Shown here one piece after another: positions 48,892 through 53,804 of a stretch of DNA of 64,000 nt (position 1 is its first letter; each line of letters opens with the position of its first letter). Below the pieces are notes generated by a model. The model ran no database searches. It saw only the letters and a list, made by a program, of their open reading frames with translations, and was not told where the DNA came from. Both the position numbers and the translations under genes were made by a program. Origin of the DNA: Cavenderia fasciculata (lineage: Eukaryota; Evosea; Eumycetozoa; Acytosteliales; Cavenderiaceae); assembly GCF_000203815.1 (NCBI RefSeq), contig NW_004457695.1:1920054-1984053 (forward strand). Reading direction: 5' to 3'.

Positions 48892-51800
48892 ATGTCAAAC
48901 AAATTCTCACCTTTGGTAGGTGATCAAACATCTCAACCACCACCTCTTTTTCCTCCACCTTCTCAACAATCACCAAAAGGTAGAAAGAAATCATCCAATA
49001 AACCAAAAAAAATAACTAAAAAGAAAAAAGAAGAAGGAAAGACAGTAACAACAAAACACTCACCATCCAAAAAAGATAGTTCTACTCAACCTTTATCATC
49101 CAACTCTTCAACATCATCCTCTGCTAAACGCAAGCTTTTTAGCTTTAGTGAGCCACCAACTGATGACTCGCCAACAGTTGGCCCACCTCCTCCACTGGTT
49201 GGAAAGAAGCCCGTTCCAAAGTCAAAGGCTGGGAAGCCTGCTGGAAAGAAGCCCGTTCCAAAGTCAAAGGCTCCAAACGCCAATCGACCATCAATCATCT
49301 TCAAAGAGGGTGAATCGTTACCAGACTCTCAATTATCATACACTTCATACGTAATGAAGTATTCAACAATTGTGAGTAATGAAACTCAAAAGAAAAAGAA
49401 GAAGAAAAAAGAATCCAACTCTTCATCATCATCATATTGGACGTTCAAATCTATGGACATTACAGATGAACAATCATCATCATCATCATCATCATCATCA
49501 TCATCATCATCATCATCATCATCATCATCATCATCATCATCGTCATCGTCATCGTCATCGTCATCGTCATCGTCAACAACGTCCAACAATATGGACACTA
49601 CAGATGACCAATCAACAACAACAACAACAACAACAACAACAACAACAACAACAACAACAACAACAACAACAACAATATCACCAGTACCAACAAACGACGA
49701 ACTAATTCAGAGCATTAGAAAGTTGGCCAATTTTATTGGAAATCAAACCACAACCTTTCTCAATCTAATAGCCACCAACAACAAGTGCTTTGAGTCAAAT
49801 GGAACACCTGTTCCATTTGTTGTTAAGTTTTTTCAAACTCAATGCAAGCTAACTGAAAGTAAGTCAAGAAAAAGAAAAAGAAAAAGAAAAAGAAAAAGAA
49901 AAAGAAAAAGAAAAAGAAAAAGAAAAAGAAAAAGAAAAAGAAAAAAAAAGATAAAGAATCAATCAAAAACTAACTCTTTTTTTTTTTCTTTAGATCAACT
50001 AAAAGAAAATCTCTCCACTTTTAGATTTGACAGAACTTCTATTGAATGGATAATAAGATATTTTGCTCTTGGAGGAGACGCTATTTTTTCAGCAATGGGT
50101 AAACATCCGGTACCTCGTATTGACACCGTGGAGGATCTATCCAATGATTCAATTTACTCATTGTAAGATTTAATTTATTTTAATTACCATAGTAGTGGTT
50201 AGTAGTGTCTAAATTGGTGACTAATTTAATTTATTTTATTTTAATTTATTTCTTTGTAGATGCTTTTTCATGAAACATGTTGCTCCATTTTTGGAAAAAG
50301 AGATGCAAAAGAGACCCAAAATGCTACAAATGCTTCAAAAGTTGAGACAGTTCCGTTGTAACAATTCAAAAAACTGGGTCAATGTGATTGTGATCAACGT
50401 TAAAAATAATATCATGGTTTCAACATGTATGTCATATAAATATATAAATATAGTTTTATGATCATTTATATTTTCCCTATTATTAATTCTTTTTTCTTTT
50501 TCTTTTTCTTTTTCTTTTTCTTTTTCTTTTTCTTTTTCTTTTTCTTCTTATTCTAGATAACCATTTAAAACAGTTATTAAACACCTACAAGGATAGGAAG
50601 ATAAAGGATCTTGGAAAGAACCAAGAAGAAATTAAAAAGGTTAAAAAGTTGGTTCGTGATACTATTTATAATTTTTCTAACACTAGATTAAAAAGAGCTG
50701 AGAAAGACCAACAACCAGTTCAAGAAGAAGGTGAAGAAGATGAAGAAGGTGAAGAAGATGAAGAAGGTGAAGAAGATGAAGAAGGTGAAGAAGAAGAAGA
50801 TGAAGAAAAGAAAGCAGACCGTGTTGTCACATATGATCTATCCGATGGTGTCTACAAAACCATAGAAATCCTTGGTGGTAAGCAAAAAAAAAAAAAACAA
50901 ACCTATTTAATATAATATTCATATATTAATTTATTTTCAATCTTTTTTATTTATTTATTTATTTATAGGTTATAACCAACAAGTTATTGATGAATATAAC
51001 AACTTATCAGATGACAAGAAGAAGAAAAAGGAAGCAAAATATGACAATCGGGTGAGCAGAAGAAAAAATATTATCAAAAAGAAAAAGGAAGATGCTCACA
51101 AAAGAAGGGAAGCTATCATAAAGGAAAGAAGAGAAGCTTCTATCAAGTTGCAAAAGTCCCCAAATACATCTTTGACAGTTGATGATTTGACAAACTCACC
51201 ATCTTCATCACCCAACACATCTTCACCACGCAACCCAAAAGGTAAATTCAATCAAAGAATGAAACATGACAGCATTCGAATCCGCGAGTTGGATGAACTG
51301 AAGAAGATCACAATAGAGGCAGAAAAAAGAAATGCTGATCTCCAACAGATTAGCGATACCCGAACACCAACACTCTCTTGGGTAGGTTAAATATATTTAT
51401 GTATCTATTAATTATAAATCAATGTATTAACTTTTATTATTATTCCTATTATTTATTCATTTTAATAGATTTGATATCCAATTCATGTTTACAAGAGAAC
51501 ATGCTAAAAACCTTTTGAAATGTTTGGGTTTAAAAAAGGCCAATGTCGAAAAAGATCACGAGGTTAACCCAAGCTATGCCATCGCCACTCTCTTCCCAGG
51601 CTTGTACAAATACGATCCAAGGCTTTTCACAAACACCAAGAGGGTGTATCTTCCGGCCACACCTCCCACTGATGTTGAAAAACAAAAGGATGAGGAAAGG
51701 AGGAAAACAAACAATGACAATAGATTTGCAAGCGTAAGTATTTCAATATTTATTACATTCACAAATTATTATTTCAATTACTAATTTTCTTTCTTTAGGC

Positions 51801-53804
51801 ATTAAAGAAATATAAAGGTAATGAAGATGTGGCAAGGGTAGCTGCTACTTTGCAAACTGGAGAAAAGGCAAAGAATGCAATTGAACAACACAACAAATTG
51901 CATGGTTTTAAAAAAGGATCTCATGATAAAAATCGAGCACTTCTTGCAAAAGGCACAATACCTTTTTCGAAAGAAGAAATGTTTCAAGAGATAGTAAACA
52001 AAGGAGTAAAGTATGAAAATACCTCAACTACCACTACACCATCTACTTCTTCTTCTTCATCATCTTTACCATATGTCACAGTAACATTCGACAAGAAGGT
52101 GTCTGTCACCACCAATGGTGCATCAGCCACCGTGACTTTTAGAACAATCAAGTACAAGCCTGGGAACAAACCCAACAAGCTGTACAACAAGCAAGTTGCA
52201 ATGGAGAAAGAATTTGCTGGAAAGTCTTTGAAGGATGTCATTGCCATTGGTATCGATCCCAACACGTGCTCAATTACTGTCGTTAACAATCACGATGACA
52301 AGGTTCTGGACATGAGAATGGATACTCTTATGGTTAAAAGAAACACCAAGTTTCTTTTAGAGAAAATCTCTTGTCATATGGGAAAGGCAATCAAAAGTTT
52401 TGAATCCTGTTTACCATCTCTCAAGTGTATGTATACATTTTATAATATTTGTTTGTTTTATTTTAATAATTAAATAATTATTAATTCATTATTTTTTTAT
52501 TTATATATTTATATATAGTCAATGTCCTTAACCCTCAAACATTCCAATCTAGGCTGGACTATTATGAAAAGTATTGTGATTATTTCGATATCTATTTCGA
52601 AGCCATCAATGATCCAATCGTACTATCTTGGAAGAGGAACTTTGCTTTCAAAAAGCAAAAGTTGAACAAAGAGTTTTACCAACAATTTGACAACTACATT
52701 CTTGATCTCTTTAAAGATCATTTCCCAACCAAGTATGCAAGTATGAACGATTCTGAAAGGAATCAGTACATTCAAGACAATACAATCATATGTATGTATT
52801 TATAAATCATTTTCAAAAAGAATATTAATGTATTAAAAAGTGTATATATATTAATATGTATTTTTTTTTCCTTTTTTCCTTTTCCTTTTTTTTTTTAAAA
52901 TAGTTTTTGGAAATGCCAAATTTGGACACAACACTCGTGGCAAGGTAACAACATTTGCAGCCAAGACTGTTGCCAACAAGTTAAAGTCCAAACAATATTC
53001 CGTTGTCTATATTAATGAATACAACACGTCAAGAGTAAGTTTCTTAAAATTATCATTTTATTTAAACATTTAATTAAATTTATTAATTCTCTTTAAACTT
53101 TTTAGCAACATTTTGATTGTTTTTTCCACCAAGAGGAGGAAAACTTGATCCATCATGACCTCAACGAACCTCATGAGGATCCAAAGGATGATTTTCATCT
53201 GGAGAAATGCCATCTCAAGCTTGGTAAAGAAAAGGATGGAGGCCAACCGACCAATCTCCACCAGTGCTCACCTATCAGCGAAGCATGTCAATCCGCTGCT
53301 AAAGGTAATAGTTTCCTTCGATGCAGTGACCACCGGCATCGTTTAGCACTCGTCAAGCAAGACACCCATTCAAAAGAATACAAAGAGTCGTTGGGGTTCC
53401 TCAAATCCATCGATGATTTGGACAAGAATCTCCAATCACACAATCTTTTGAATGTGGCAGGTCAATGTCGAACAAGGAAGGTGACACCGTCAGATGTTGC
53501 CGGTTCGGAGACTGAATCGCGTCAGGACTCTCAAAAAGTTGCCTCGACCCAATCGTCTTCGTCATCAACAAAAAAGTTCGACTATCGACACGGACAGAAT
53601 AAATATGGTCCAGAGATTAGAAAAGCAAGTAAGTCCCTACACAACAAGCACAGAATGGCTGTGTCCTGGAAACGTGTTTTGTGCACTGGTTGTGGAAAAA
53701 GTTTCAACCGGGATGTTAATGCAGCACGTAATATGCTGCTACTTGGTATTTTTAAAGTTTGGAAAAATGGTCACCGTCCGTCAAGATATGGAAAGTCAAA
53801 TTAA
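48892..53804 (+). CDS. fanzor: Fanzor (eukaryotic TnpB-like RNA-guided nuclease)
   Basis: Fanzors are RuvC nucleases guided by an RNA made from the element's 3' side. Ten exons: 48892-49858, 49994-50162, 50260-50426, 50557-50877, 50969-51381, 51469-51733, 51799-52426, 52519-52791, 52904-53034, 53106-53804. Every junction keeps frame with canonical sites except 5/6; using donor 51386 and acceptor before 51498 instead restores frame and gives 1335 aa. RuvC-I is AIGIDPNTCSITVV (Asp at about 52255). RuvC-II is FGNAKFGHNTRGKVTTFAAK then YSVVYINEYNTSR (Glu at about 53017). The end has LCTGCGKSFNRDVNAARNML, a zinc-ribbon half plus RuvC-III Asp at about 53712. The 370-aa N-terminus is Pro/Ser/Thr low complexity and basic. 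The first CxxC of the ribbon is unclear. Confidence 0.85.
49474..49676 (+). repeat. Coding TCA/TCG and ACA microsatellites in Fanzor exon 1
   Basis: TCA repeats passing into TCG (49474-49575) encode about 34 Ser. ACA repeats (49614-49676) encode about 21 Thr. They flank a duplicated short motif (MDITDEQS and MDTTDDQS), so the whole serine or threonine block plus motif has been duplicated. Confidence 0.9.
49866..49950 (+). repeat. AAAAAG hexanucleotide tract in Fanzor intron 1
   Basis: About 14 near-perfect copies fill most of the intron 49859-49993. Confidence 0.95.
50489..50545 (+). repeat. CTTTTT hexanucleotide tract in Fanzor intron 3
   Basis: About nine copies in the intron 50427-50556, complementary to the intron 1 tract. 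It also forms a long polypyrimidine tract before the acceptor. Confidence 0.95.
52382..52482 (+). repeat. Source copy of the 101-bp duplication
   Basis: End of Fanzor exon 7 and start of intron 7. The other copy lies 6420 bp upstream at 45962-46062. Confidence 0.95.

Follow-up and report, generated by a model that had tools for sequence, protein, structure and literature searches.

A Large Fanzor1-Type Gene in a Probably Defective Copy of a Two-Gene Transposon of Cavenderia fasciculata

Introduction

We analyzed a stretch of 64,000 nucleotides (hereafter the window; contig NW_004457695.1, positions 1,920,054 to 1,984,053 of the forward strand) from Cavenderia fasciculata, which we take to be the former Dictyostelium fasciculatum. 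Judging by its sequence motifs, a large intron-rich gene in this window is of the Fanzor1 type, and a transposase-like gene adjoins it on the other strand. It is likely that a two-gene cut-and-paste transposon occupies this region in a defective copy and that its open sister copies encode an RNA-guided Fanzor. The features are listed in Table 1.

Bao and Jurka (2013) list four Fanzor1 families for D. fasciculatum and seven for Polysphondylium pallidum; in each species, three of these are in Sola2 elements (PMC3627910). The Sola2 elements of the former species (DFa) have terminal inverted repeats (TIRs) of 12/13 bp and AWWT target duplications, and DFa-2 encodes a transposase of 888 amino acids (aa). 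Fanzor transposons of this kind are already known from the species, and the first-pass annotation of this DNA was mistaken in holding the nuclease to be not yet described from this lineage. The paper of Bao and Jurka was the only one on dictyostelid Fanzors met in a literature search that covered few subscription papers.

Results and Discussion

Nuclease Motifs of the Fanzor1-Type Gene

Splice-site reading of the window gave an open reading of ten exons and 1335 aa, in which all nine introns have GT donors and AG acceptors. The first-pass annotation came without an exon list, and this reading was taken as its model on the agreeing length. The annotation had described the protein as far larger than most Fanzors and as having a disordered N-terminus. 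The size statement holds, since the majority of Fanzor1 proteins have 600–700 aa (PMC11423790). A low-complexity N-terminus is present, exon 1 amounting to 322 aa. The three acidic residues of the RuvC motifs (D, E, D) were likewise found in the annotated order in the 1335-aa model, but in the window copy this order holds only with an unusual junction between exons 5 and 6.

The spliced C-terminus of the window gene, from RuvC-I on, matched PF07282 (TnpB/Cas12f) with 35.6 bits against a cut-off of 26.3; the last exon alone scored 24.0 and 24.8 bits in two scans, just under the cut-off. An NCBIfam scan gave no relevant family. PF07282 matches were found at seven genome places. A protein search of the genome gave 43 matches, among which four further families were read: L066 (at C4:225 kb and again at C18:729 kb), L067 (at C17:796 kb, of a kind with 12 entries in this search), L068 (C14:3232 kb) and L069 (C18:1309 kb). 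RuvC-I was seen in the first three and not in the stretch of L069 that was read. L066, L067 and L068, with splices set by eye, were joined to the window family in a four-family alignment, the invariant columns of which include G-DP, NE-NTS, H--C, C--C and FNRD. PF07282 was matched in all four spliced families. Chance does not account for the RuvC motifs, which recur at six near-identical places of the genome (counting that in the window) and in further families.

A profile built from the four families had SpuFz1 of Spizellomyces punctatus (8gkh) as its best match in the PDB, with an E-value of 0.0014. The match consists of three stretches that span the three motifs in order, of which the second and third are not significant alone. 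A PDB search with the single Fanzor sequence gave one weak match only, to a ribosomal protein. The Fanzor identity given in the annotation is supported by the PF07282 matches, the four-family alignment and the profile search.

The spacing of the motifs agrees with most of the published Fanzor1 pattern. D and T of D-X(125,275)-[TS][TS]-X-X are 188 positions apart in the window family and 169–185 in the three others, and the D of NRD lies 7 positions past the last Cys in all four families, within X(5,50)-RD. The glutamate follows the alternative rule that places it six residues ahead of the zinc finger (PMC10711439): E, six residues and then H were found in four of four families, three of them spliced by eye. 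The window family has DPN at the first motif, as in SpuFz1, and the other three aligned families have DPG. In SpuFz1, the metal site includes D383 and N385, and N385 helps hold magnesium.

Both halves of the predicted zinc ribbon were found, the first as HxxC, 187 residues ahead of CxxC. HxxC instead of CxxC is the first knuckle in all five families read (spliced by eye in four), and by this splicing it comes after an exon junction in each of them. The gap between the knuckles comprises 187, 201, 205, 264 and 289 residues over the five families. In the degraded copy at C2:106 kb (copy A), about 346 bp of this gap (window 53213–53558) are missing.

Copies of the Element and Their Ends

We searched the genome (31.0 Mb) for copies of the element. 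Besides the window copy (W), long copies are present at C2:456 kb (B), C3:1834 kb (C), C14:2921 kb (D) and C18:1217 kb (E). Positions 49926–53969 are common to the window and C, D and E at 96% identity, and the 3' part of the five long copies is 96–99.8% identical. A further copy on C21 (F) spans 52074–53971 at 98.4% identity; because it starts 3.4 kb inside its own contig, it is regarded as 5'-truncated. The genome holds 20 matches to 51799–53804, most of them fragments. From end to end, B has 9,541 bp, C 10,927 bp (with a gap of 100 N) and D 12,887 bp. Two short copies, L060 (C2:1744 kb, 401 bp) and L057 (C2:811–812 kb, 1,341 bp), retain right-end sequence. The first half of exon 1 (48892–49200) exists in one version in the window and B and in an unlike version in C, D and E, as if it had been swapped.

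The copies end at AAATAAAGGCTC, after which AAAT follows. This right-end word has 10 exact matches in the genome, with AAAT next in 9; the tenth (L028) was dropped, as it showed no further likeness. Left ends begin with GAATATTTATTTTC, GAGTGTTTATTTTC or GAGCATTTATTTTC and pair imperfectly with the right end GAGCCTTTATTTC, which gives a short TIR of about 12–13 bp. AAAT stands on both sides in five of the six copies read (B, C, L057, L060 and C14:1467–1472 kb, if the ends of the last belong together). The commonest kind of left end (n = 15) is preceded by AAAT in 14 cases and by AATT in one, and ATTT flanks both sides of the related element at C18:1.31 Mb. The two ends of D were not accepted as a clean pair, since the flanks differ. 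The sister copies have two traits of Sola2 elements, namely an AT-rich 4-bp duplication and a short imperfect TIR. The window copy lacks a left end and is flanked by a duplication of 13 bp, not 4 bp.

The Transposase-Like Gene

The long near-identical Fanzor copies adjoin, or sit near, a divergent transposase-like gene. In the window, this minus-strand neighbor is 99% identical to DFA_08389 of C. fasciculata. It is longer in B and D, and the 3' part seen there is cut off in the window. In the first part of the gene, two frames meet in the window and in B with no intron visible, and a stop occurs in D; the public model DFA_08389 skips the place where the frames meet. By our own reading of the frames, the gene looks damaged. 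The blocks MDFKEN, FWSD-A-HF and YHGKSD-D are common to it and one distant homologue. We infer its class from the work of Bao and Jurka (PMC3627910).

Proposed Working of the Open Sister Copies

The element may work as follows. Gene 1, on the minus strand, would encode a transposase of the type called Sola2 by Bao and Jurka, and gene 2, on the plus strand, would encode the large Fanzor1. The open sister Fanzors would most likely be RNA-guided DNA endonucleases. A right-end omegaRNA ending in GGCTCAAAT would carry the genomic flank as guide, and AAAT at the emptied site would act as target-adjacent motif (TAM). The nuclease would then re-cut sites vacated by the transposon, and repair would restore the element.

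This proposal follows SpuFz1, the omegaRNA of which is a 3' one from the interval between the stop codon and the right end; its TAM is CATA, and ghost loci are known for it (PMC10432273). In the window element, the 165 nucleotides of this interval fold at a z-score of −3.07 relative to shuffles, and the fold of the candidate omegaRNA is closed by pairing of 53836–53845 with the right end. L060 and L057 resemble the ghost loci of SpuFz1 in keeping right-end sequence. Scans of the window with Rfam at gathering scores and for tRNAs were empty.

We also compared the silent and non-silent differences among the copies in exons 2–10. The counts used the 1335-aa model, a choice that matters for no more than a few junction codons. 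The non-silent/silent differences were 12/17 between W and C (the same between W and E), 7/12 between B and C, and 9/12 between B and D. The proportions of non-silent and silent changes (pN/pS) were 0.0029/0.0195 for B and C and 0.0050/0.0276 for W and C, so that silent changes are favored. These between-group differences are consistent with constraint, and the within-group differences appear to show none.

Several results weigh against an RNA-guided nuclease in a Sola2-type element. The within-group comparisons (W and B, 11 non-silent and 5 silent; C and D, 2 and 0) carry no purifying signal; the counts for W and B would be consistent with decay of the window copy. The candidate omegaRNA folds at a z-score of −2.55 with 40 shuffles, 33 of 640 control stretches fold as low, a longer stretch folds at an ordinary −0.89, and no compensatory change was seen. 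We infer the omegaRNA, the TAM, cutting and homing; the sequence itself shows the gene, its motifs, the copies and their ends, the 4-bp duplications of the sister copies and the damage in the window copy. Copy D is flanked by ATTT on the left and AAAT on the right. The transposase-like gene matched no Pfam family and no PDB chain, and its AlphaFold predictions (pLDDT scores of 35.9 and 35.5) were too low for use. Finally, the strict C4 finger that follows [TS][TS]-X-X in the published Fanzor1 motif (PMC3627910) is not found here. The label Fanzor1-type was kept because Bao and Jurka file the D. fasciculatum proteins under Fanzor1.

Another explanation is that RNA-guided cutting of DNA is not what the Fanzor does, and that it helps transposition in some other way, such as by regulating the transposase. 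No activity was reported for any dictyostelid Fanzor in the literature searched, and each of the five families read has an altered zinc ribbon with its halves 187–289 residues apart. However, the Fanzor retains the catalytic residues and, at the metal position, the DPN of SpuFz1, and SpuFz1, GtFz1 and PpFz1 all cut DNA under guide (literature including PMC11423790). We regard this explanation as unlikely, and RNA-guided cutting by the open sister Fanzors is preferred.

A Deletion in the Window Copy

Exon 5 of the window gene lacks 41 bp that all four other long copies (B, C, D and E) keep; copies F and A do not span the site. The 1335-aa model joins exons 5 and 6 by a donor at 51386 and an acceptor at 51497, whereas in the four sisters the donor at 51382 and the acceptor at 51468 join in frame. 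With the shared splice sites, the window copy runs into a stop after 680 aa, ahead of RuvC. The same sites give open readings of 1351 aa in B, 1435 aa in C, 1436 aa in D and at least 1256 aa in E, the start of which is unsettled. Because the 41-bp loss shifts the frame before RuvC when these shared sites are used, the window copy is probably dead and probably makes no full-length Fanzor. The junction of the 1335-aa model is best taken for a bridge over the deletion. The annotated ten exons and roughly 1335 aa do exist as an open reading, but the exon 5/6 junction was not confirmed, as other sites join in frame in four of four long sisters. Given the deletion, it is doubtful that this copy encodes a programmable nuclease.

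Could the window copy nevertheless be a working Fanzor of 1335 aa with all motifs, made through the junction 51385/51498? That reading is open with GT-AG sites, and such a rescue is not expected of every random 41-bp deletion. However, a pyrimidine tract is missing from the acceptor TTTACAAGAG, which falls 29 bp within the exon as used in all four other copies, and the kept donor at 51382 sits just ahead of the donor at 51386. The element has also lost its left end, and the adjoining transposase looks damaged. A working window copy therefore seems improbable. If one copy is to be chosen for experiments, the copies should first be compared, because that of the window is frameshifted and four sisters are open.

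The Broken Left Side of the Window Copy

The broken left side is joined to a filler copied from the Fanzor gene itself (Table 1). Ahead of this filler lies a 23-bp foldback with arms at 45884–45906 and 45928–45950 and AAATTAGTGAGTA in its loop; this 13-mer occurs three times in the 31-Mb genome. The duplication and the filler may stem from an aberrant insertion, from templated filling, or from a cut in an empty site.

The last possibility would make the window copy a fossil of RNA-guided homing. The Fanzor would have cut the empty site on the downstream side of an AAAT TAM, and repair would have started at the right flank and run across the element, with error-prone joining on the left. This explanation was drawn from the intact right end, the truncated 5' side, the filler, and a duplication that starts with AAAT and reaches 9 bp into the right flank. 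Bao and Jurka reported duplications of 11–12 bp of the form ATAATTNNNN(N) in the MCi-2 Fanzor elements of Mucor (PMC3627910), which could be read alike, as a TAM plus the bases up to a trimmed cut. However, among the three 5'-truncated copies (window, E and F) an upstream copy of the right flank is present in the window only. Neither E and F, the right ends of which are intact too, nor the degraded copy A has one. The scar was thus seen in one case only, too few for a decision, and there is little chance that homing is the right explanation.

Table 1. Coordinates of features in the window.
Feature	Position	Strand	Basis or remark
Fanzor1-type gene, window copy	48892..53804	+	splice-site reading, copy comparison
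Exons 1–4	48892-49858, 49994-50162, 50260-50426, 50557-50877	+
Exon 5	50969-51381 or -51385	+	alternative donors
Exon 6	51469- or 51498-51733	+	alternative acceptors
Exons 7–10	51799-52426, 52519-52791, 52904-53034, 53106-53804	+
41-bp deletion, approximate place	51369..51370	+	comparison with four long copies
RuvC-I aspartate codon (GIDPN)	52255..52257	+	motif alignment and SpuFz1 match
RuvC-II glutamate codon (NEYNTS), alternative glutamate	53017..53019	+	seven positions ahead of first zinc ligand position
First zinc knuckle HFDC (HxxC)	53109..53120	+
Second zinc knuckle CTGC and RuvC-III aspartate (FNRD)	53682..53714	+	D codon 53712-53714
Candidate omegaRNA scaffold	53836..53969	+	guide would begin at 53970
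Right terminal repeat AAATAAAGGCTC	53954..53965
Predicted TAM AAAT, which flanks sister copies as target duplication	53966..53969
Transposon copy without left end	46062..53969		common to window and B, 98.6% identity
Divergent transposase-like gene, DFA_08389 (638 aa, hypothetical protein)	46246..48184	-	Sola2 assignment from PMC3627910
101-bp copy of Fanzor 52382-52482, joined to broken left side	45962..46062	+	100 of 101 bp identical
Left copy of 13-bp duplication AAATTAGTGAGTA	45910..45922	+	right copy 53966-53978

Comparison with Known Systems

DFa-1 to DFa-4 are like the window element in species, in a Fanzor1 beside a transposase, in 12/13-bp TIRs and in AWWT duplications. The ends of the copies agree with the published descriptions of DFa-1, DFa-2 and DFa-3 (PMC3627910), and the window element may be one of the DFa elements. 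The HxxC knuckle, the 41-bp deletion and the 13-bp duplication are not mentioned in the accessible description of the DFa elements.

SpuFz1 shares D-P-N, E-Y-x-T-S and NRD with the window family, aligned in order. However, it has 633 aa in one open reading frame and a CPRC knuckle, and the window family has 1351–1436 aa, ten exons, HFDC and a gap of 187 residues. PpFz1 is also a Fanzor1 enlarged by an insert (PMC11423790). Its Fanzor RuvC insertion domain has about 100 aa and binds cyclophilin, whereas the window family is enlarged by its low-complexity N-terminus and by a long stretch inside the zinc ribbon. The HxxC knuckle and the long ribbon gap, if borne out by transcripts, would broaden what the Fanzor nuclease domain tolerates.

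The Fanzor C-terminus found no match at the search thresholds among 5.8 billion proteins, though this collection contains its neighbor DFA_08389. A profile scan of viral contigs gave 57 pattern matches, none of them confirmed, and so no hint of a viral source in that collection.

That a host gene was domesticated from a Fanzor is very unlikely: the many introns would suit it, as would the cellular protein families matched by 7 of the 10 long window frames scanned (out of 17 of at least 300 aa), one of them below the cut-off, but several near-identical copies have transposon ends and target duplications.

C. fasciculata has at least five Fanzor1-type families that have diverged from one another. 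Four were seen with like right ends, those of L066, L067 and L069 resembling that of the window element. The role of Fanzor and homing could thus be tested in one amoeba.

Among the neighboring frames, 60543–61469, 56499–58652 and 53980–56112 matched the Ulp1 protease, paired MMR_HSR1 GTPase and ankyrin-repeat families, respectively.

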